In this document: in pieces, positions 11,482-19,094 of the stretch
Layout of the letters: every line of letters begins with the position of its first letter
How positions within the stretch are numbered: position 1 is the first letter of the stretch
Position numbers and translations under genes: made by a program
Notes under the pieces: generated by a model
Database searches by the model: none
Seen by the model: the letters and a program-made list of their open reading frames with translations, nothing else
What the model was told of the DNA's origin: nothing
DNA from: a virus
Strand: one strand, 5' to 3'
DNA: 21,744 nucleotides
IMG/VR virus record: IMGVR_UViG_3300037558_000988
Coordinates: 1-21,744 of that record

Positions 11482-11952
11482 CTACTCTTCTAAATTAAGT
11501 GGGTTATCAAGAATCCTTTGTATGCGCTCTTCTAAATCATCTCGCATCACCCTTAGCTCATTGTTTACTTCTCTAAGGCTGTCGTTCACCCTTTCCTCAA
11601 GGGCGTAAACGTCATCTCTCATCTCTCTGGTAGCCTCCGCCACCGTGTCATCAGTGCTTCTGGCAATTGACTCTACAGTGTCTATATCAGCCTGTAGGCG
11701 GTCTAATTCTCTCTCCAGAGCCGTAATCAAAGAATCAACATTGCCTATCTTTGTATCAATGACGGCCAAAGCCTCGTCATATTCGCTGAAGTCAGGTGAG
11801 ACGTATTCCGTTATGGCCTGCTCTGCCGTGAGTAATCGTTGATATAGCTCAAAGCCACCCCACATGGCGGCTAAAATGCTACCCGCAAACGGTATAGCAA
11901 GCAGGAGCTTGCCACCCGAAACCTTTAGCCCCGCAAACTCTACCTCTGCCAC
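11482..11952 (-). CDS. membrane-anchored coiled-coil protein, inner-spanin-like
   Basis: A 156-residue protein with a GTG start that overlaps the upstream gene by 13 bases. Residues 12-36 (SGGKLLLAIPFAGSILAAMW and on) form one membrane segment. From about residue 55 to 148 the chain is a long acidic coiled coil (IGNVDSLITALERELDRLQA, then later LREVNNELRVMRDDLEERIQ). A short N-terminal anchor plus a periplasmic coiled coil of about this length is the build of an inner-membrane spanin such as lambda Rz (153 residues), and the gene lies beside the lysis genes. No outer lipoprotein partner with a lipobox is visible. Similar proteins in marine phages are called coil-containing proteins, so the spanin role is an inference. 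Confidence 0.75.
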   Translation of the reverse strand: MAEVEFAGLKVSGGKLLLAIPFAGSILAAMWGGFELYQRLLTAEQAITEYVSPDFSEYDEALAVIDTKIGNVDSLITALERELDRLQADIDTVESIARSTDDTVAEATREMRDDVYALEERVNDSLREVNNELRVMRDDLEERIQRILDNPLNLEE

Positions 11953-13859
11953 TGGATGTCCACCAATTCGTTAAATGTTTCCGATCCCCCCAGCCTCAGT
12001 AGGCCAAAAGGATCAACCCGTGGTGCGTTTTTAGGGTAAACCTGAGTGTTTTTATAAAATTCTCCACGGTCAGTAAGGTTTACATCCTGATATTGGTCGA
12101 ATTTAGGATTGCTAGATATTAAAAACACCGCAACGCTTTGGTCTGTAAACCCGCCTGTATCCGACAGCGTTTCCAGTTGCTGATCCATGCTCTTGTCAAT
12201 TTGCACTTCGCTCATGGTTTTTAAGGCTACCGTGGCCTTTTGCACCATCGTTTGCTCTTGGATAGTTGGATCATCAATCTCAAAGCGGCTAAAGTCTGGC
12301 GGCTGTGCACTCAAAAACTGCCCAACACTTTGGCCTGACGCAATAGCATCATCAAAATCATCCTCAAACTGCTCTTGAGATGGGGGTGCAAAATTAACAG
12401 ATGTCATTACATTAAGCTGTTGTGGTTGTGTTTGTTGAGATAATGTCTGTGCAATTTGAGTTTCTTTTGCTTTAAAACCCCAGTAATTAGCCCCGTTCAT
12501 TTGATTGCCTGACTGGCCGTCAACTTCGAAAGTTTGTTGCATTGCTTGAGGCTGTTGTTGACCTTGCGATGCCCTCGCTCTTTGATCTGGCTGTTGGTTA
12601 GCAAGTGATAGCGCAATCCCCATCACATCAACCGCTGGCCTTACCGCCGCCCGTACAGCCTCAGCCGCTGGCTCTACTCGCGTTTCCGAGGCAACGTCTA
12701 TGGGAGCTACCTTTCTTTGCACAGCAACTGGCCTTGGCTCAACAGCTTCTTGCGCTCTGGCAGGCTCAGGGCGAGGCTCTTTCGTGACTCGAACGACCTC
12801 AGCCATAACCTCTTCGGAAGTCGCTTCCCTAACCCGAAAAACCTGTGCAGGCTCTTTCTTGATTTCTAATAACTCTTCTGGATCCTCAAGCATAAGAGGC
12901 TCGTCACTTATTTGAGGGTTGCCCTGAACAGAAGACTCACCCCGCATTTGCCGTTCGGTTTGAGCGGGAGGCTCACCCGACATTTGCGGCATATCTTGAG
13001 GAGGAGGCCCACCCTGCATTTGTGGGCGTCCTTGTGGGGGTGGAAATCCGAGCATTTCCTCTTCTTGTTGAGTTTGTTGGTAGACCTGTTGAGGCTCGAT
13101 ATGCTTCATAACCCTTGGCCTTCCAGTAGCATCAGGCTCTTCTAAAAACAAAAAATCGTCGGCAGAATCTCCAAACACAGTGTTAGTTGCTTGCTCTCCA
13201 AAGGTTGGAGGCTGAGGCTCTGGAATAACGATTACCTCCTCTTCTACGGCAACATTGTCTCCGTAACCCGCACAAGACGGATCGTTTTGAGGGTTTGAGC
13301 AATCAACGACAATAGTAATTCCCGTATTTATAGGGGTGTAGATGGCAACCACCGAGGGATTTCTAACCCTTGGCCCGTAGTACCCAGCCCAGAACCCGCG
13401 ATCTACCCCGTCTATTCTTAAGCTAACGGCCTCGTAAGGGTTAGCAAAGTCATAAACTTCAGCACCACTAAAGGTCTGCCACTCTTGATTAAAGTCTTGT
13501 CGATTAAACACCTCTCGGACATCACTGTCCCCAGCCTCATTCCCAACTGCGAGAAAGGCTTGTATTTCGTCTTGAGTGCCATCGGGGTTGCCACAGTTGC
13601 CGCCAAAAGAATTGTTGCAACCGTACAAGGCATCGAACGACCAATTGAGGGTAAGAACCTGTAAGGGATCATAAGCAGGCAACACGCCCACTGCTGTTAC
13701 CTGACCCGTCTGAAAGCTATATTGATAACTGTTAGCTTCCGCTCTAAACAATACGTCGCCTACCGTTTGGGTGGCCGTAAGCAAGTTTTTTGAGGTTTCC
13801 GTTTGCCCAAGCCCTACAGAGGCGTAAAGCAGAATGACTGCGCCGATAAGCCTTTTCAT
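11940..13859 (-). CDS. secreted Pro/Gln-rich protein of unknown function
   Basis: A 639-residue protein with a Sec signal peptide (MKRLIGAVILLYASVGLGQ) and probable cleavage near residues 18-19. Residues 20-190 look beta-rich and contain Cys pairs (GCNNSFGGNCGNPDG, VDCSNPQNDPSCAGYG) that could form disulphides in the periplasm. Residues of about 210-420 are Pro/Gln/Glu-rich with repeated PPPQxxPQMxG-type units, likely disordered. The C-terminal 200 residues are more folded-looking (QFLSAQPPDFSRFEIDDPTI; SVAVFLISSNPKFDQYQDVN). I start at 13859 rather than at the longer open frame because this ATG gives the signal peptide and follows a GAGAGGCGG ribosome site. It may act in the envelope or as an exported virion protein. 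Confidence 0.75.
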   Translation of the reverse strand: MKRLIGAVILLYASVGLGQTETSKNLLTATQTVGDVLFRAEANSYQYSFQTGQVTAVGVLPAYDPLQVLTLNWSFDALYGCNNSFGGNCGNPDGTQDEIQAFLAVGNEAGDSDVREVFNRQDFNQEWQTFSGAEVYDFANPYEAVSLRIDGVDRGFWAGYYGPRVRNPSVVAIYTPINTGITIVVDCSNPQNDPSCAGYGDNVAVEEEVIVIPEPQPPTFGEQATNTVFGDSADDFLFLEEPDATGRPRVMKHIEPQQVYQQTQQEEEMLGFPPPQGRPQMQGGPPPQDMPQMSGEPPAQTERQMRGESSVQGNPQISDEPLMLEDPEELLEIKKEPAQVFRVREATSEEVMAEVVRVTKEPRPEPARAQEAVEPRPVAVQRKVAPIDVASETRVEPAAEAVRAAVRPAVDVMGIALSLANQQPDQRARASQGQQQPQAMQQTFEVDGQSGNQMNGANYWGFKAKETQIAQTLSQQTQPQQLNVMTSVNFAPPSQEQFEDDFDDAIASGQSVGQFLSAQPPDFSRFEIDDPTIQEQTMVQKATVALKTMSEVQIDKSMDQQLETLSDTGGFTDQSVAVFLISSNPKFDQYQDVNLTDRGEFYKNTQVYPKNAPRVDPFGLLRLGGSETFNELVDIQWQR

Positions 13860-13860
13860 A

Positions 13861-14766
13861 TTACATCCGCCTCTCTGGCTCAGGCACCCGCTCTGGACGG
13901 GCTTCCCACAAAGCCTTGGCCTCGTCACCTATCTGACCCTCAATCGGGCAGGGCGTCCCAGCATCCATCATGGATGACCACACTCTATAGTCTTGACACA
14001 TAAGGCTTACAGCCGCTACCCGCATACCCATGTCATAAAGGGTTTTACTCAGCTTAATTCTTTCGCAGTTTTTGTCTCGAACAGACTTGCCCGTACTGAA
14101 TCCCAGTATCTGCGTTTGTACCGCGCCGGATATACCCGTGGTGCAAAGGTCTTGGCTGTAACTACTACCAATTGACGGGGCTATCGCGCTTGGCGGCGGA
14201 GAGTTTATATCCTGCGTTACTCTTTGAGTTGAGGTGCTAGTAGACTTACTGTTGTTAGTGTTTACGTTGTTGTTAGTAGAATTAAGGTCTGACGTAGAGC
14301 TGGTCATCTGTTTAATAGTTGTGTCAGAGGTATTTAAACTGACACCGAAATTAGTATTGGTGTTTTGATTAACACTCGTAGCACTACTAACAGACGTGCT
14401 GTTGTTAGTGTTAGTGTTGACGTTATTGTTGTTATTAGTGTTGTTGTTTACGTTGTTACTGGTTGAGTTGCTTGTGTTGATGTTGTTAATCAACCCAGTG
14501 TAGTCAGTCGTGTTAACGCTCTGATTAAGATTAAGATTGTTCGTACTGGACGTTGAGTCAATTATTGATGTATTTGTATTTGTATTTGTGTTTAGGTTGG
14601 TGTTCGTAGACTCACCTGCATAGGTCGTCGTATTAACATTAGTATTTTTGTTATCGTTGTCACTGTTGCTTGTAGAGGACGATGTTGTATTTATATTGGT
14701 CGTTGTCTGCCCTAGCGACAAGACAGGCCACAATAGGCACACAGCAATAACCAGTAGGCGCTTCAT
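13861..14766 (-). CDS. secreted Asn/Thr/Ser-rich protein of unknown function
   Basis: About 301 residues from the ATG at 14766, which opens a clean signal peptide (MKRLLVIAVCLLWPVLSLGQ). Earlier in-frame starts exist at 14787 (ATG) and 14790 (GTG, overlapping the upstream stop as TAGTG), so the true start is uncertain. Residues of about 21-190 are low-complexity Asn, Thr and Ser. The last 110 residues form a distinct domain: SYSQDLCTTGISGAVQTQI, then DKNCERIKLSKTLYDMGMRV, SLMCQDYRVWSSMMDAGTPC and IGDEAKALWEARPE, with four conserved-looking Cys. I remember this C-terminal domain from other phage proteins, where it has no assigned function. It lies directly upstream of the second signal-peptide gene. 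Confidence 0.75.
   Translation of the reverse strand: MKRLLVIAVCLLWPVLSLGQTTTNINTTSSSTSNSDNDNKNTNVNTTTYAGESTNTNLNTNTNTNTSIIDSTSSTNNLNLNQSVNTTDYTGLINNINTSNSTSNNVNNNTNNNNNVNTNTNNSTSVSSATSVNQNTNTNFGVSLNTSDTTIKQMTSSTSDLNSTNNNVNTNNSKSTSTSTQRVTQDINSPPPSAIAPSIGSSYSQDLCTTGISGAVQTQILGFSTGKSVRDKNCERIKLSKTLYDMGMRVAAVSLMCQDYRVWSSMMDAGTPCPIEGQIGDEAKALWEARPERVPEPERRM
14220..14700 (-). repeat. low-complexity Asn/Thr/Ser-coding tract
   Basis: About 480 bases dominated by AAC, AAT, ACT, ACA and AGT codons on the minus strand, seen on the plus strand as runs of GTT, GTA and TTG. Short units recur many times, but there is no exact long period. Such tracts are prone to slippage and can change length without breaking the frame when whole codons are gained or lost. 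Confidence 0.8.
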
Positions 14767-14789
14767 TGTTTTTGCGTTCTCGCACATCA

Positions 14790-15140
14790 CTAAACACCAT
14801 TTAGAGCGTCCAAATCATCCCAAACTATTTGAGCGTGGGCCGCGGCATCAAACGCTATCGTGCCGTCAGGATCATCTGGGTCTGGATCAGTCCAACTATT
14901 TGCGGTTGCCTGAGTCGAAAGATAGGTCTGCAAATCAGCCTTCGATGTAATTTCCGCAATCGCGTCCGAAATATCTGCGCCATCATCAGCAATGCCAATC
15001 ATAATCCAATCTTGTGGGCTGGCTGTTCCGCTGTCTGCGACGACGTGCATACCGCCTGTGTTTTGCGGTACGCCAAATTTAAGGAACGTAGGAATGGTGC
15101 CTTCAGCGGTAAGGCGATATTTAACAACTTTATGCGGCAT
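14790..15140 (-). CDS. small acidic tail-associated-type protein
   Basis: A 116-residue acidic protein starting MPHKVVKYRLTAEGTIPTFL, then FGVPQNTGGMHVVADSG and a Trp/Asp/Pro-rich second half (TDPDPDDPDGTIAF). The GTG at 15143 is an alternative first codon three bases upstream; the ATG has a GGAG site seven bases before it. The gene overlaps the end of the upstream coiled-coil gene. No family is recognised. Composition suggests a compact soluble domain with a flexible acidic loop. Its place between adhesin genes and secreted proteins gives no firm role. Confidence 0.7.
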   Translation of the reverse strand: MPHKVVKYRLTAEGTIPTFLKFGVPQNTGGMHVVADSGTASPQDWIMIGIADDGADISDAIAEITSKADLQTYLSTQATANSWTDPDPDDPDGTIAFDAAAHAQIVWDDLDALNGV

Positions 15141-15957
15141 CACTGGTCTCCTCTAATAGCGGTGTGTTTGTTAGTGAGGTTCTATCCATAATCTGGAAGC
15201 CCCTGCTGTCAGCAAAATCCGTTGGGCAGTGCTTCCATTTTTCAGCACATCCCTCCAGCCATTGCACTGTATGATGATGCTCCGGTGCCTTGCCCTGCTT
15301 GACTAATTCGTTTTCCCAGTTGAGGTATGAATATACCTCGGCTTGTGCTTGGGCGGCATTAATACCCAGATCGAATATGTAGATCAAGTTGCCTTCGTCA
15401 ATCATGCCATTGCGACTTCTGGCGGCATTCAGCGCCTGCTTCATGCAAGTCATAATGTGGTACTTGATCTCTTCCTCTTCGTAATCTTCTTCGGTCAGAG
15501 TGTCTTTGCCCAGTTTTTCCATTAGGCTGTCATACTGGTTAGTGAAAAAATTCAACTTGCGGATAGCGCCCTCCACATAGCCCCTTGATAATTCAGCCTT
15601 GGCAATCAACTCATCGCGCCTAATTTCAAGAAGTTCGCGCTCCAGATGATCCTCTTCTTGAGTGATCTTCCGCTTGATCTTCTTCAGCTTGATCTCGTCT
15701 TTTTTCATGCGGAAGTAGCCTTCCTGCAATGCGGCCTTGGTTTTTTCAATCTCTGCCAAGCTGTGCTTCAAAGAGCGGATCGGCGTAATGGCTGTCACAT
15801 CCAGCGTCACGCTCATCATTTGTGAGTGCGACTTGTAGAAGTTGCTGGACGCTTGCGCTATCGCGGGAGCCTTCTCTTGTATGTTGGCCAGCATGGACTT
15901 GTATTCTGGCCTTGCTGAAGGCAGGTGGATATTTACTTCTGCTACATCTTTTTTCAC
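15130..15957 (-). CDS. coiled-coil protein of unknown function
   Basis: A 275-residue protein from a GTG at 15957 that overlaps the adhesin stop as TAGTG and follows the GGAGGA encoded in the adhesin's last codons. The longer open frame to 15987 starts at TTG and has no ribosome site, so I reject it. Residues of about 60-170 are strongly charged heptad-like helix (SLAEIEKTKAALQEGYFRMK; IKRKITQEEDHLERELLEIR). The region after EDYEEEEIKYHIM is mixed helix with GMIDEGNLIYIFDLGINAAQ. The C-terminal 60 residues have an EHHHTVQWLEGCAEKWKHCP stretch with His and Cys that might bind metal. No signal or membrane segment is present. It may be a chaperone or assembly factor for the adhesins before it. 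Confidence 0.75.
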   Translation of the reverse strand: MKKDVAEVNIHLPSARPEYKSMLANIQEKAPAIAQASSNFYKSHSQMMSVTLDVTAITPIRSLKHSLAEIEKTKAALQEGYFRMKKDEIKLKKIKRKITQEEDHLERELLEIRRDELIAKAELSRGYVEGAIRKLNFFTNQYDSLMEKLGKDTLTEEDYEEEEIKYHIMTCMKQALNAARSRNGMIDEGNLIYIFDLGINAAQAQAEVYSYLNWENELVKQGKAPEHHHTVQWLEGCAEKWKHCPTDFADSRGFQIMDRTSLTNTPLLEETSDAA

Positions 15958-16967
15958 TAAGAAAGTCCTCCGTGTGAATTTGAGCAACCAGAAAAATTAG
16001 ATTTTTCAGCAGTTAAATTTCCAAAGTCTGTGGCGTTACCTGTTGTAGCTATAGTGACCTTATCAATCTGGTTGCCTCTACCACTGCCCGATCCATCAAA
16101 CCCACCTGCAAATACAGCTAATATTTTATTAGAGTTAGACGCACAATTGTTCACAGCAACAGTTAAATCTCCGAAGTCTGTAGCGTTACCTGTCGATGCG
16201 ATAGTTACATATTGAATTACATTTTGTCTTCCACTTGTTCCACCTGCAAACAAAGCTCTCGTATTAGATGCCGCACCCGCAGGATAGCCATTAGCCGCCG
16301 CTAATAAATTTCCAAAATCAGTGCCATTACCTGTTGAACTTATAGTTATATACTCAATAACATCAAGATTTGCACTGCCATTAGTTCCGCCTGCAAATAA
16401 ACCTCTTGTAGTAGAGCTTGTAGAGCCCATACCACTTTTTGCTTCAAGTAAGTTTCCAAAATCAGTAGCATTACCTTCTGAAGCTATAGTTATATAATCA
16501 ATTGTATCTGTTCGTGAGCTAGCAATGCCACCGCCAACAACACCTCTTGTTGCATTAGAATGTGCCGCATTTAATCTTGTGGCCGCAGATAAATCACCAA
16601 AATCACTAGCATTACCTGCACTAGCAAATGTAACAAAGTCTATTATATTTGAAGCTGAGCCACGTTCTCCACCAAGCCATACACCCCTAGTCGTTGATCC
16701 GCAAGCGGCAGATATTTCACCTCCTACAGTAAGATCACCAAAGTCAGTAGCATCACCACTTGATCCCATTATAATTTTTTCAATTACATTTGAGTTGCCA
16801 TTGCCGCCACCAAAAAGAGCTACTGGTGCAGAAGGCCAATTACCTGCCCCTTTGAAGGTGCTCTGCTCTGCCAAAGACCAAACGCCGCTTGCGGCAGAGT
16901 TTAGCGATGATCCGCCCGGCTCAACAGGAGAATCGCTAATAATATTGCCTTGATAGCGTTTAGGCAT
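15957..16967 (-). CDS. third six-repeat DFGDL adhesin (propeller-like)
   Basis: A 336-residue protein. Residues 1-50 form an N-terminal segment (MPKRYQGNIISDSPVEPGGS, later GVWSLAEQSTFKGAGNWPSA) that resembles the N-terminus of the second paralogue. Six repeats of about 45-50 residues follow, each with the pattern RGhFxGG, a variable loop, NxIxYhTIxSTGNATDFGDL, another variable loop, and S/N-rich ST. The protein closes with SNSHGGLS, the start of a seventh repeat. This fits a six-bladed beta-propeller of the RCC1/Kelch-like kind with strand closure between the ends. It is probably a host-recognition or tail-tip protein. The start overlaps the upstream stop as TAATG. Confidence 0.8.
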   Translation of the reverse strand: MPKRYQGNIISDSPVEPGGSSLNSAASGVWSLAEQSTFKGAGNWPSAPVALFGGGNGNSNVIEKIIMGSSGDATDFGDLTVGGEISAACGSTTRGVWLGGERGSASNIIDFVTFASAGNASDFGDLSAATRLNAAHSNATRGVVGGGIASSRTDTIDYITIASEGNATDFGNLLEAKSGMGSTSSTTRGLFAGGTNGSANLDVIEYITISSTGNGTDFGNLLAAANGYPAGAASNTRALFAGGTSGRQNVIQYVTIASTGNATDFGDLTVAVNNCASNSNKILAVFAGGFDGSGSGRGNQIDKVTIATTGNATDFGNLTAEKSNFSGCSNSHGGLS

Positions 16968-17521
16968 TATGCAATGCCCCCATGAGCGTTAGATAATCCA
17001 GACTGAGCATACCCATAAGCACTTGTTAAATCGCCAAAGTCAGTGGCATTGCCTGTCGATGCAATGCTAATCGCGTCTATCGTGGCGGTTGTACTAGGTG
17101 CTTGACCGCCCCCAAAAATACCCGTTATCTTGCTAGAGGCAGAGGCGTGATATCTTCTTGCGGCAGTTAAATCACCAAAGTCTGTGGCGTTACCTGTTGA
17201 GGCAATGGTCACATAATCAATTGTATTTAGCTTTGTTGAGCCACTTGCTCCTCCTCCGCATACGGCCCTTGTAGAGCTTGAAACTGCCGCCGCAGATCCG
17301 CTCCGCCCAACCGTGAGGTCGCCAAAGTCGATAGCGTCACCAAGAGAGGCAATTGTTATGTACTGTATCCTGTTTGTTGTGCCACTATCGCCATGACCCA
17401 TGAACAAGCCTCTTGTCGTAGAGCTTGTGCCACAAAAATCCCTGTTACCACTAAGTAAGTCCCCAAAATCTGTACCATTTCCTGTCGAGGCAATTGTCAC
17501 GTACTGAATTACGTTACTCAT
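16967..17521 (-). CDS. DFGDL adhesin, distal part of split second paralogue
   Basis: A 184-residue protein that starts inside a repeat (MSNVIQYVTIASTGNGTDFG) and lacks the RGIFAGG strand that opens a normal unit. That missing strand lies at the end of the ORF just upstream. It contributes the rest of repeat three and repeats four to six, and ends SNAHGGIA like its paralogues. The ATG overlaps the upstream stop as TAATG and has GGGGAG five bases before it, so separate translation is feasible. As a separate chain it would be an incomplete propeller. It may instead be the distal half of a single frameshifted gene. The sequence cannot tell these apart. Confidence 0.75.
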   Translation of the reverse strand: MSNVIQYVTIASTGNGTDFGDLLSGNRDFCGTSSTTRGLFMGHGDSGTTNRIQYITIASLGDAIDFGDLTVGRSGSAAAVSSSTRAVCGGGASGSTKLNTIDYVTIASTGNATDFGDLTAARRYHASASSKITGIFGGGQAPSTTATIDAISIASTGNATDFGDLTSAYGYAQSGLSNAHGGIA

Positions 17522-17535
17522 TAGCTCTCCCCGCC
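17521..17535 (-). other. frame break at a four-G run in the second adhesin
   Basis: The minus-strand sequence is GGC GGG GAG AGC TAA TG. Reading the first ORF gives GG-ES-stop. Slipping back one base at the G run gives GG-GELMS-NVIQYV, which has the same spacing as GG-TSGRQ-NVIQYV in the third paralogue. A fifth G would restore one six-repeat protein. GGGGAG at 17527-17532 also serves as a plausible ribosome site for the ATG at 17521. Confidence 0.75.
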
Positions 17536-17916
17536 CGCAAAAATACCTCGCGTCTCACTTGAGCAACCGGCCATTTTTTCTTTTGCCGCTATCAAATTGC
17601 CAAAGTCTACGGCGTTACCTGTGGTAGTTAAATCAACATAATCCATGACATTCACTCTATCGCCATCATTACCGCCCGCAAAAATGCCTCTCGTTACGCT
17701 TGCCGCCCCTCCCTTAGAGCAAAAGCCTCTTGCAACCGTAAGGTCGCCAAAATCGGTAGCATTCCCTGCGGATGTTAATACTATTTGTTCTATGGTGGCA
17801 GTGGTGCTACCCAGCGATCCACCAAACAGACCAATAGGGGTTGGAGGAACCCAATTATTGTCGCCTATTGCTTGAAAGACTGTCGAGAGCGACCATACAC
17901 CTTGTCTGTTAGGCAT
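17521..17916 (-). CDS. DFGDL adhesin, proximal part of split second paralogue
   Basis: A 131-residue protein from the ATG at 17916 (MPNRQGVWSLSTVFQAIGDN). The frame extends upstream to a TTG without a ribosome site, which I reject; the chosen ATG overlaps the stop of the first paralogue as TAATG and has GGAGGA eight bases before it. It encodes the GVWSL...NNW N-terminal segment shared with the third paralogue, two full repeats, and the opening strand of a third (ETRGIFAGGES), then stops. The break falls exactly between strand one and the NVIQYV strand. Joined with the next ORF the total is six repeats, equal to the other two paralogues. Confidence 0.75.
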   Translation of the reverse strand: MPNRQGVWSLSTVFQAIGDNNWVPPTPIGLFGGSLGSTTATIEQIVLTSAGNATDFGDLTVARGFCSKGGAASVTRGIFAGGNDGDRVNVMDYVDLTTTGNAVDFGNLIAAKEKMAGCSSETRGIFAGGES

Positions 17917-19094
17917 TAGGAAAGTCCTCCGTGAGCAGATGAACAACCAGCAAAATTAGCTCGGCCGACAGTTAAGTCGCCAAAGTCTGATGAATTAGCC
18001 GTTGTTGCTATTACGACATATTGTATTTGGTTGGTGTAAGTAGACTGACCGCCAGCGAACAGGGCATTAGTGCTATCCGCGCAACCTGCCATGTATCCAA
18101 TATTTCCAATCGTATCCCCAAAGTCTGTGGCATTGCCTGTGCTTGCGATCGTAATAAAGTCTATAGTGCGACCTGATCCGAAACCTCCGCCGCCAGCAAA
18201 AATTCCTCTAGTTGAATTTGAAGCTCCAGTTAAAGCCCGTCTGCCCTCAGACAAGTCCCCAAAGTCAGTTGCGTTACCAGTAGAAGAAATAGTCACATAA
18301 TCTATTACATCTTTACTTGATCCCCTACTTGAACCGCCGCCCCAAACGCCCCTTGTTGATGAAGCCAACGCCGCCAACTGTGTGCCGCCAACTGACAAAT
18401 TACCAAAGTCGCTAGAGTTTCCAGTGCTTGCTATGGTAATGTATGAAATCGCTGTGCTGTCAGCCACCCCGCCACCAACAAGACCCCTTGTATCATTTGA
18501 ACAGGAAGCACCTGAACCAGCATGTGCTGGGTCTAAATTCCCGAAATCAGAAGCATTGCCCGCGCTGAAAATAGAAACATAATTTATTGTCTCGTTGTTA
18601 CCCCCGTCATTGCCGCCCCAAAAAATACCTCTAGTGCTACTTGCGCATGACGCATTGTTATCAGATGAAACTACTAGATCGCCAAAGTCGGAGGCATTGC
18701 CTGTTGTTCCTAGTGTTACAAAATCAATAACATTAAGTCGCGTGCCACCAGAGTTTTGACCGCCGCCAAATAATCCCCTTGGAGCAACAGGACTAACACT
18801 TCCACTAGCATCGCTAGGCGCTGAATACCCATAAGCGTTAATCGCCCATACGTTAAACGTGTAGCTTGTGCCGTTTGTCAGACCCGTGACTGTTACGGGA
18901 GAAGATGATCCTGATGCGCCAATCCCGTCATTAGATTGGGCGCGATACCCAGTAATGGCCGAGCCGCCAACGTCAGAGGGCGCGGTAAACGATATGGTCG
19001 CTTGGGTATTACCCGCTGAAGCCGAAACGCCAGTAGGAGAATCTGGAGCCTCTAGGCCAAACTGGCCAATAAAACCGCCTTTGTTTTTAGCCAT
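17916..19094 (-). CDS. first six-repeat DFGDL adhesin with fibronectin III domain
   Basis: A 392-residue protein. After a short leader (MAKNKGGFIGQFGLEAPDSP), residues 17-102 are a fibronectin type III domain: PTGVSASAGNTQATISFTAP, the AITGYRAQS strand, PVTVTGLTNGTSYTFNVWAI and NAYGYSAPSDA. Six DFGDL repeats follow from about residue 105, with units such as RGVWGGG...VIDYVTISSTGNATDFGDL, and the end is SSAHGGLS. The FN3 domain probably binds or spaces the propeller from the tail. A ribosome site (AGGAG) precedes the ATG. Marine phage proteins with such repeats are known to me as unassigned tail proteins. Receptor binding is inferred from domain type and location after the tail fibre gene. Confidence 0.85.
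   Translation of the reverse strand: MAKNKGGFIGQFGLEAPDSPTGVSASAGNTQATISFTAPSDVGGSAITGYRAQSNDGIGASGSSSPVTVTGLTNGTSYTFNVWAINAYGYSAPSDASGSVSPVAPRGLFGGGQNSGGTRLNVIDFVTLGTTGNASDFGDLVVSSDNNASCASSTRGIFWGGNDGGNNETINYVSIFSAGNASDFGNLDPAHAGSGASCSNDTRGLVGGGVADSTAISYITIASTGNSSDFGNLSVGGTQLAALASSTRGVWGGGSSRGSSKDVIDYVTISSTGNATDFGDLSEGRRALTGASNSTRGIFAGGGGFGSGRTIDFITIASTGNATDFGDTIGNIGYMAGCADSTNALFAGGQSTYTNQIQYVVIATTANSSDFGDLTVGRANFAGCSSAHGGLS
17925..17930 (-). promoter_or_regulatory. ribosome site encoded in the HGGLS codons
   Basis: The codons for the terminal Gly-Gly of the first paralogue are GGA GGA, which form a perfect Shine-Dalgarno eight bases before the ATG at 17916. The third paralogue's end (15959-15975) has nearly the same sequence before the GTG at 15957. 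This fixes both downstream starts. Confidence 0.8.

Follow-up and report, generated by a model that had tools for sequence, protein, structure and literature searches.

The second of three tandem adhesin-like genes in an uncultured phage is broken into two overlapping reading frames, and this break is, with little room for doubt, a conserved gene boundary. Distant relatives carry the same cut, which makes it a genuine two-chain arrangement; neither a sequencing error nor an on/off switch is at work. We consider it probable that the boundary divides a six-bladed, Kelch-like β-propeller, part of a tail or adhesin component, into two coupled, co-assembling chains (the N-chain and the C-chain), and likely that these form one propeller.

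The stretch of DNA analyzed (the window) is an entire IMG/VR record of 21,744 bases. It holds phage terminase, SU10-like portal and major capsid genes, and its terminase is nearest to those of phage 023Pt_psg01 (62%), Pelagibacter phage HTVC027P, and Phage DSL-LC04, affinities that make a marine tailed phage the most likely source. The adhesin-like genes lie on the minus strand (Table 1), each with a 48-amino-acid repeat of the form N-V-I-x-Y-V-T-I-A-S-T-G-N-A-T-D-F-G-D-L...S-S-T-R-G-I-F-A-G-G. A pattern count gave 6+6+6 = 18 units over the three genes, the middle one being 2+4. Its upstream open reading frame (17946-17521, minus strand) ends ...SSETRGIFAGGES-TAA, whereas the downstream frame begins MSNVIQYVTIAS... 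at an ATG (17521-17519) that overlaps the upstream stop codon by 1 nt (TAATG); the stretch across the junction reads GGGCGGGGAGAGCTAATG. A preliminary description of this DNA had located the break here, next to a run of four Gs, and had given the split gene six repeats in all, as we find by unit count. It had also observed that re-reading in the -1 frame yields GG-GELMS-NVIQYV, and this is indeed equal in length to GG-TSGRQ-NVIQYV of the third paralogue. The N-chain probably starts at MPNRQGVWSLS (ATG 17916-17914) and not at the TTG at 17946, and this ATG too forms a TAATG overlap, with the preceding gene. For the gene after paralogue 3, the most likely start is a GTG in a TAGTG overlap (15957-15959, minus strand), and not the TTG further upstream (15987) that the mechanical ORF list gives. 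Elsewhere in the window, two proteins encoded at 13861-14790 and 11940-13928 (minus strand) have signal-peptide-like N-termini (MKRLLVIAVCLLWPVLSLGQ and MKRLIGAVILLYASVGLGQ), and the first is also extremely rich in Asn, Thr, and Ser.

Table 1. Propeller genes and junction elements in the window
Feature	Position	Strand	Description
Paralogue 1	17916..19094	(-)	A-type anchor with FN3 domain and intact 6-unit propeller
N-chain	17521..17916	(-)	B-type anchor (MPNRQGVWSLS...), first β2-β4, 2 repeat units, C-terminus GIFAGGES-TAA
GGGCGGGG	17529..17536	(-)	Gly-Gly codons, Shine-Dalgarno-like site; includes G4 run 17529-17532
TAATG	17519..17523	(-)	Stop/start overlap of N-chain and C-chain
C-chain	16967..17521	(-)	MSNVIQYV..., 4 repeat units, C-terminus SNAHGGIA
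Paralogue 3	15957..16967	(-)	C-type anchor and intact 6-unit propeller; AlphaFold pLDDT 89.6

The same cut, at the same point in the repeat, was found at 14 distinct junctions on uncultured phage contigs, in relatives down to 63% amino-acid identity (L009, L010, L011, L092/L190/L191 [two pairs], L097, L124, L180, and L183-L189). The preliminary description had held that a homologue broken elsewhere would argue against a single ancestral gene; the outcome was the opposite, as the relatives share the break point. Among the nearest of them, taken from two IMG/VR protein searches, the C-chains of L009, L010, and L011 are 77%, 71%, and 63% identical to that of the window, and their junctions read ...GIFAGGDN-TAATG, ...GIFAGGAS-TAA-ATG (with both chains in one frame), and ...AIFAGGEN-TAATG, respectively. 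An identical junction recurs in assemblies from different samples (L190 and L191). On the L097 contig (IMGVR_UViG_3300046170_000085), we also noted that terminase large subunit matches fall in two overlapping ORFs (25931-27380), which may reflect an intron, a frameshift, or an error.

Unit number in this family is quantized. Of the 373 repeat ORFs surveyed, which come from the window and 148 loci, 258 had 6 units, 66 had 12 (two propellers fused in one chain, as in L192, L193, and L060), and one had 18 (three fused), with a few ORFs of 7 or 11 units standing outside this pattern; the family both fuses and splits propellers. The internally broken sets of the survey were all cut at one loop and all summed to six, as 2+4 (L009, L010, L011, L092, L097, and the window) or 3+3 (L124), and at no split was a 2+3 or 3+4 combination met. 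The loop makes up about 16% of the 48-residue period, and all seven breaks outside the window fall within it (p ~2e-6 if the breaks are independent; p ~6e-4, reckoned from the same fraction, for the four lineages behind them). Scans with junction patterns added L180, L183-L189, and L191 (two split pairs), but because they searched for this very type of junction they supply further examples and no test of position. The first, strict pattern was too narrow: it gave 21 hits, with the repeat only in L160 (= L009) and L162 (= L097). In L191 (8581-10657, minus strand), two split propellers, with anchors of types B and C and both in frame 0, follow one another. Bacterial and archaeal genomes yielded six repeat loci and no split pair, and cultured phages no relatives at 1e-5 (weak matches of 30-43%, E 0.03-0.09). 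The repeat gave weak but significant profile matches to phrog_19111 and phrog_26444, families of unknown function for which neither a function nor a two-chain form is recorded.

What kind of boundary is this? Splits of the TAATG type have GGxGG as their final pair of Gly codons, at a distance of 9 nt from the ATG. The third base of the first codon is a purine at 11 of 13 junctions, compared with 31 of 94 other Gly-Gly pairs from the same loci (Fisher p=5e-4), a bias consistent with selection for a Shine-Dalgarno site. Of the two junctions that depart from this, one is the window's (GGC GGG), yet it reads GGGGAG. Among 290 boundaries between intact propeller genes, 130 have a TRATG overlap, and in 93 of them HGG is followed by exactly two residues and then TRATG, at the 9-nt spacing; this is the commonest layout. 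Within the window, it is seen between paralogue 1 and the N-chain (GGAGGACTTTCCTAATG), between the N-chain and the C-chain, between the C-chain and paralogue 3, and, as TAGTG, after paralogue 3. The split junction is the family's ordinary gene boundary: a Gly-Gly Shine-Dalgarno site, 9 nt, and TAATG.

Short overlaps are known to mediate termination-reinitiation and are enriched for genes encoding subunits of heteromeric complexes (PMC10666635). Two hallmarks of such coupled pairs (PMC10666635, PMC6728339), a stop/start overlap (here the 1-nt TAATG) and a Shine-Dalgarno-like site within the upstream gene, are both present at the split, and translation of the downstream chain would be coupled to that of the upstream chain; the difference is that the overlap here cuts one domain instead of joining separate subunits. 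We also considered a Met in the loop of intact genes as an evolutionary intermediate. Met occurs in 243 of 1933 linkers of intact genes, but among 20 listed cases most lie in a different, inter-propeller type of linker.

The predicted structure makes sense of the position of the cut. Modeled by AlphaFold with 48 relatives, paralogue 3 forms six four-stranded blades (pLDDT 89.6, pTM 0.85) with a 1+3 closure, its C-terminus supplying β1 and its N-terminus β2-β4. The best Foldseek matches were Kelch domains (KLHL12, KLHL3, and KEAP1; best E 4e-20, target TM 0.87), with TM-scores by target mostly of 0.82-0.90. The predicted fold is accordingly that of a six-bladed Kelch-like β-propeller, which has in common with the Kelch domain the six four-stranded blades, the Gly-Gly ending β2, and the 1+3 closure of the last blade. 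It differs in belonging to a phage protein, in showing about 10-17% identity, and in being encoded as two chains that are separated at a β2-β3 loop; moreover, the Pfam Kelch profile had no hit on the repeat at E<=0.1, so that by sequence it falls outside the Kelch family, and a PDB sequence search with the repeat returned nothing at E<=1.

The frame-0 chains of L010, joined with the stop read as a residue, were likewise modeled as six blades (pLDDT 87.8, pTM 0.84), although the alignment of intact relatives used for this prediction favors a closed ring. In the model, β2 and β3 of one blade span residues 153-157 and 164-171, and the cut, after residue 162 and before residue 163, lies in the loop that connects them; the earlier remark that the break lies inside one repeat is therefore right in structural terms as well. 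The N-chain would end with β1-β2 and the C-chain begin with β3-β4 of the cut blade, and the last β1 of the C-chain pairs with the first β2-β4 of the N-chain in the closing blade. As modeled, the two chains should complete each other at both seams, which speaks to their compatibility and not to their assembly.

We propose that the ribosome terminates the N-chain at the TAA and that the Gly-Gly codons of its last strand (GGGCGGGG) serve as a ribosome-binding site for a restart at the overlapping ATG, so that synthesis of the C-chain would be coupled to that of the N-chain. In the cut blade, β1-β2 would come from the N-chain and β3-β4 from the C-chain; in the closing blade, the N-chain would give β2-β3-β4 and the C-chain β1. 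Two closures within blades would thus hold one propeller behind the N-chain's anchor, as a component of the tail or adhesin. What the data show directly is the conserved boundary with its signals, selection on both chains, and a tally of units and strands that fits a predicted fold; efficient reinitiation, 1:1 assembly of the chains, a location in the virion, and receptor binding are the parts of this scheme that we infer.

Could the two chains be real and yet not meet? They might build separate homo-oligomers or enter different complexes, three two-unit chains, for example, making one six-bladed ring. Propellers are almost always single-chain, and although short propeller fragments are able to homo-oligomerize, designed WD40 fragments, when mixed, did not hetero-oligomerize in the laboratory (PMC6805158), which counts against a two-chain ring; coupling by itself, moreover, is no proof of contact between the chains. 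But self-association of a four-unit chain cannot give six, and the unit sums at splits are always six. The chain ends in the model are also ill suited to homo-oligomers: the open blade of the C-chain has no β2, and the N-chain would be left with surplus strands, whereas together they are an exact complement. We regard separate assemblies as unlikely.

Another possibility is that programmed -1 frameshifting at the G run produces a single fused protein, if perhaps only in this phage. The window offers an argument for it, and against two chains, in that a -1 slip there is open for 11 codons; the downstream frame is open for 9-11 codons upstream in L183 and L187 too, and in these three a slip could join the chains. 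Elsewhere it could not: in L009, L011, L097, L124, and the L184-L189 group (except L187), the downstream frame meets a stop 1-2 codons short of its ATG, and a ribosome slipping by -1 on the Gly-Gly codons would terminate immediately, and in L010 and both L191 pairs the chains are in frame 0 (stop, then ATG). A downstream frame open from the slip site is thus far from general among the members, and no X XXY YYZ heptamer could be read from the sequence at the window's G run. The frame of the window, one of only three of this kind among the 14 junctions, looks incidental, and we judge frameshifting very improbable.

Both chains are under purifying selection, dN/dS being 0.11-0.30 for N-chain and C-chain alike where dS is finite. 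Synonymous sites are near saturation between the window and L010 or L011, and the split is therefore old. A change between G4 and G5 would join the frames, in the window alone, and could represent phase variation or a single-base sequencing or assembly error. However, the split is kept in many independent assemblies in differing frames, with dN/dS of the downstream chain well below 1; the frames and stops of the relatives refute this as a general cause, and for the window as well we give it almost no credence. No G-tract length variants were seen in near-identical assemblies among viral contigs, a weak result, as the closest records may lie outside the search. Of the four options in the preliminary description, then, two chains made by TAATG reinitiation with their own GGGGAG site stands, whereas phase variation through single-base loss, programmed frameshifting, and assembly error fall away: diverged relatives share the residue at which the break occurs, and while some have their chains in frame 0, in most a stop codon would prevent any slip. 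Decay is just as implausible: repetitive propellers broken by a frameshift or stop have been interpreted as disrupted genes, and such remnants, Kelch-like ones included, occur in bacteria (PMC9218822), but the phage splits resemble them only in being broken, as they are conserved, with both chains under selection, the ATG and Shine-Dalgarno-like site kept, no parts missing at the loop, and the cut never elsewhere in the unit.

We built a tree of 15 split and 77 intact propellers. The window, L009, L010, L191b, and L011 form one clade (98%), whose N-chains bear three anchors, A (FN3 type), B (MPNxQGVW type), and C (KRYQGNIIS type), and the 3+3 pairs of L184, L185, L186, L188, and L189 form another (100%). 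The minimum number of changes between intact and split is seven, but deep branches are weak, and the tree therefore suggests only that the split arose at least twice, probably several times. The anchor of L009 is 86% identical to that of paralogue 3 of the window, whereas its split propeller is 76% identical to paralogue 2, the split gene, a mismatch indicating that the split propeller moved between anchors. Recombination between the chains was considered and rejected: identity between the window and L009 is higher in units 3-5, with no clean step at the boundary. The N-chain and C-chain look to have been inherited as a pair.

Similar GVW(S/T)L-type anchors occur with Gly_rich_2 (L009 5388-6242 and DSL-LC04) and with repeated Laminin_G_3 lectin domains (DSL-LC04 and L198 6001-10098); L198 3061-4746 is also among the loci with such anchors that carry Gly_rich_2 or Laminin_G_3 modules. 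Judged by their sequences, the anchors and their exchangeable binding domains are a modular system. Modules swapped behind a common anchor, as found here, are expected of receptor-binding tail proteins, and on this ground the propeller is likely a receptor-binding protein acting in host binding.

Oligomeric β-propellers assembled from fragments exist, as in the trimeric Ralstonia fucose lectin. Overlapping genes with coupled translation, Kelch propellers, and propellers built from fragments have each been described before. Designed WD40 fragments (PMC6805158) and the tachylectin-2 fragments cited in the same paper likewise place more than one chain in a propeller, but as homo-oligomers and mostly as laboratory constructs, whereas here two different chains are encoded by coupled genes conserved in nature. 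The open-access papers searched contained no report of a conserved natural propeller cut within a blade and encoded by two coupled genes, and, where searched for phages, none of a split or two-chain propeller.

Finally, we put forward tentatively, at slightly below an even chance, a broader idea: that phages have repeatedly split one propeller, at the same loop, into two co-translated chains, giving a natural heterodimeric β-propeller, that the Gly-Gly codons are a latent ribosome-binding site through which the loop can gain a new gene boundary, and that the halves are possibly recombined to vary host binding. If true, the conserved and recurrent split at one loop would provide ready-made two-chain propellers for work on folding and design, and would show how the repeat codons of a domain can themselves give rise to a gene boundary within it. 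For annotation, the finding is a warning that tail genes broken in this way are genuine and should be neither merged nor called pseudogenes.
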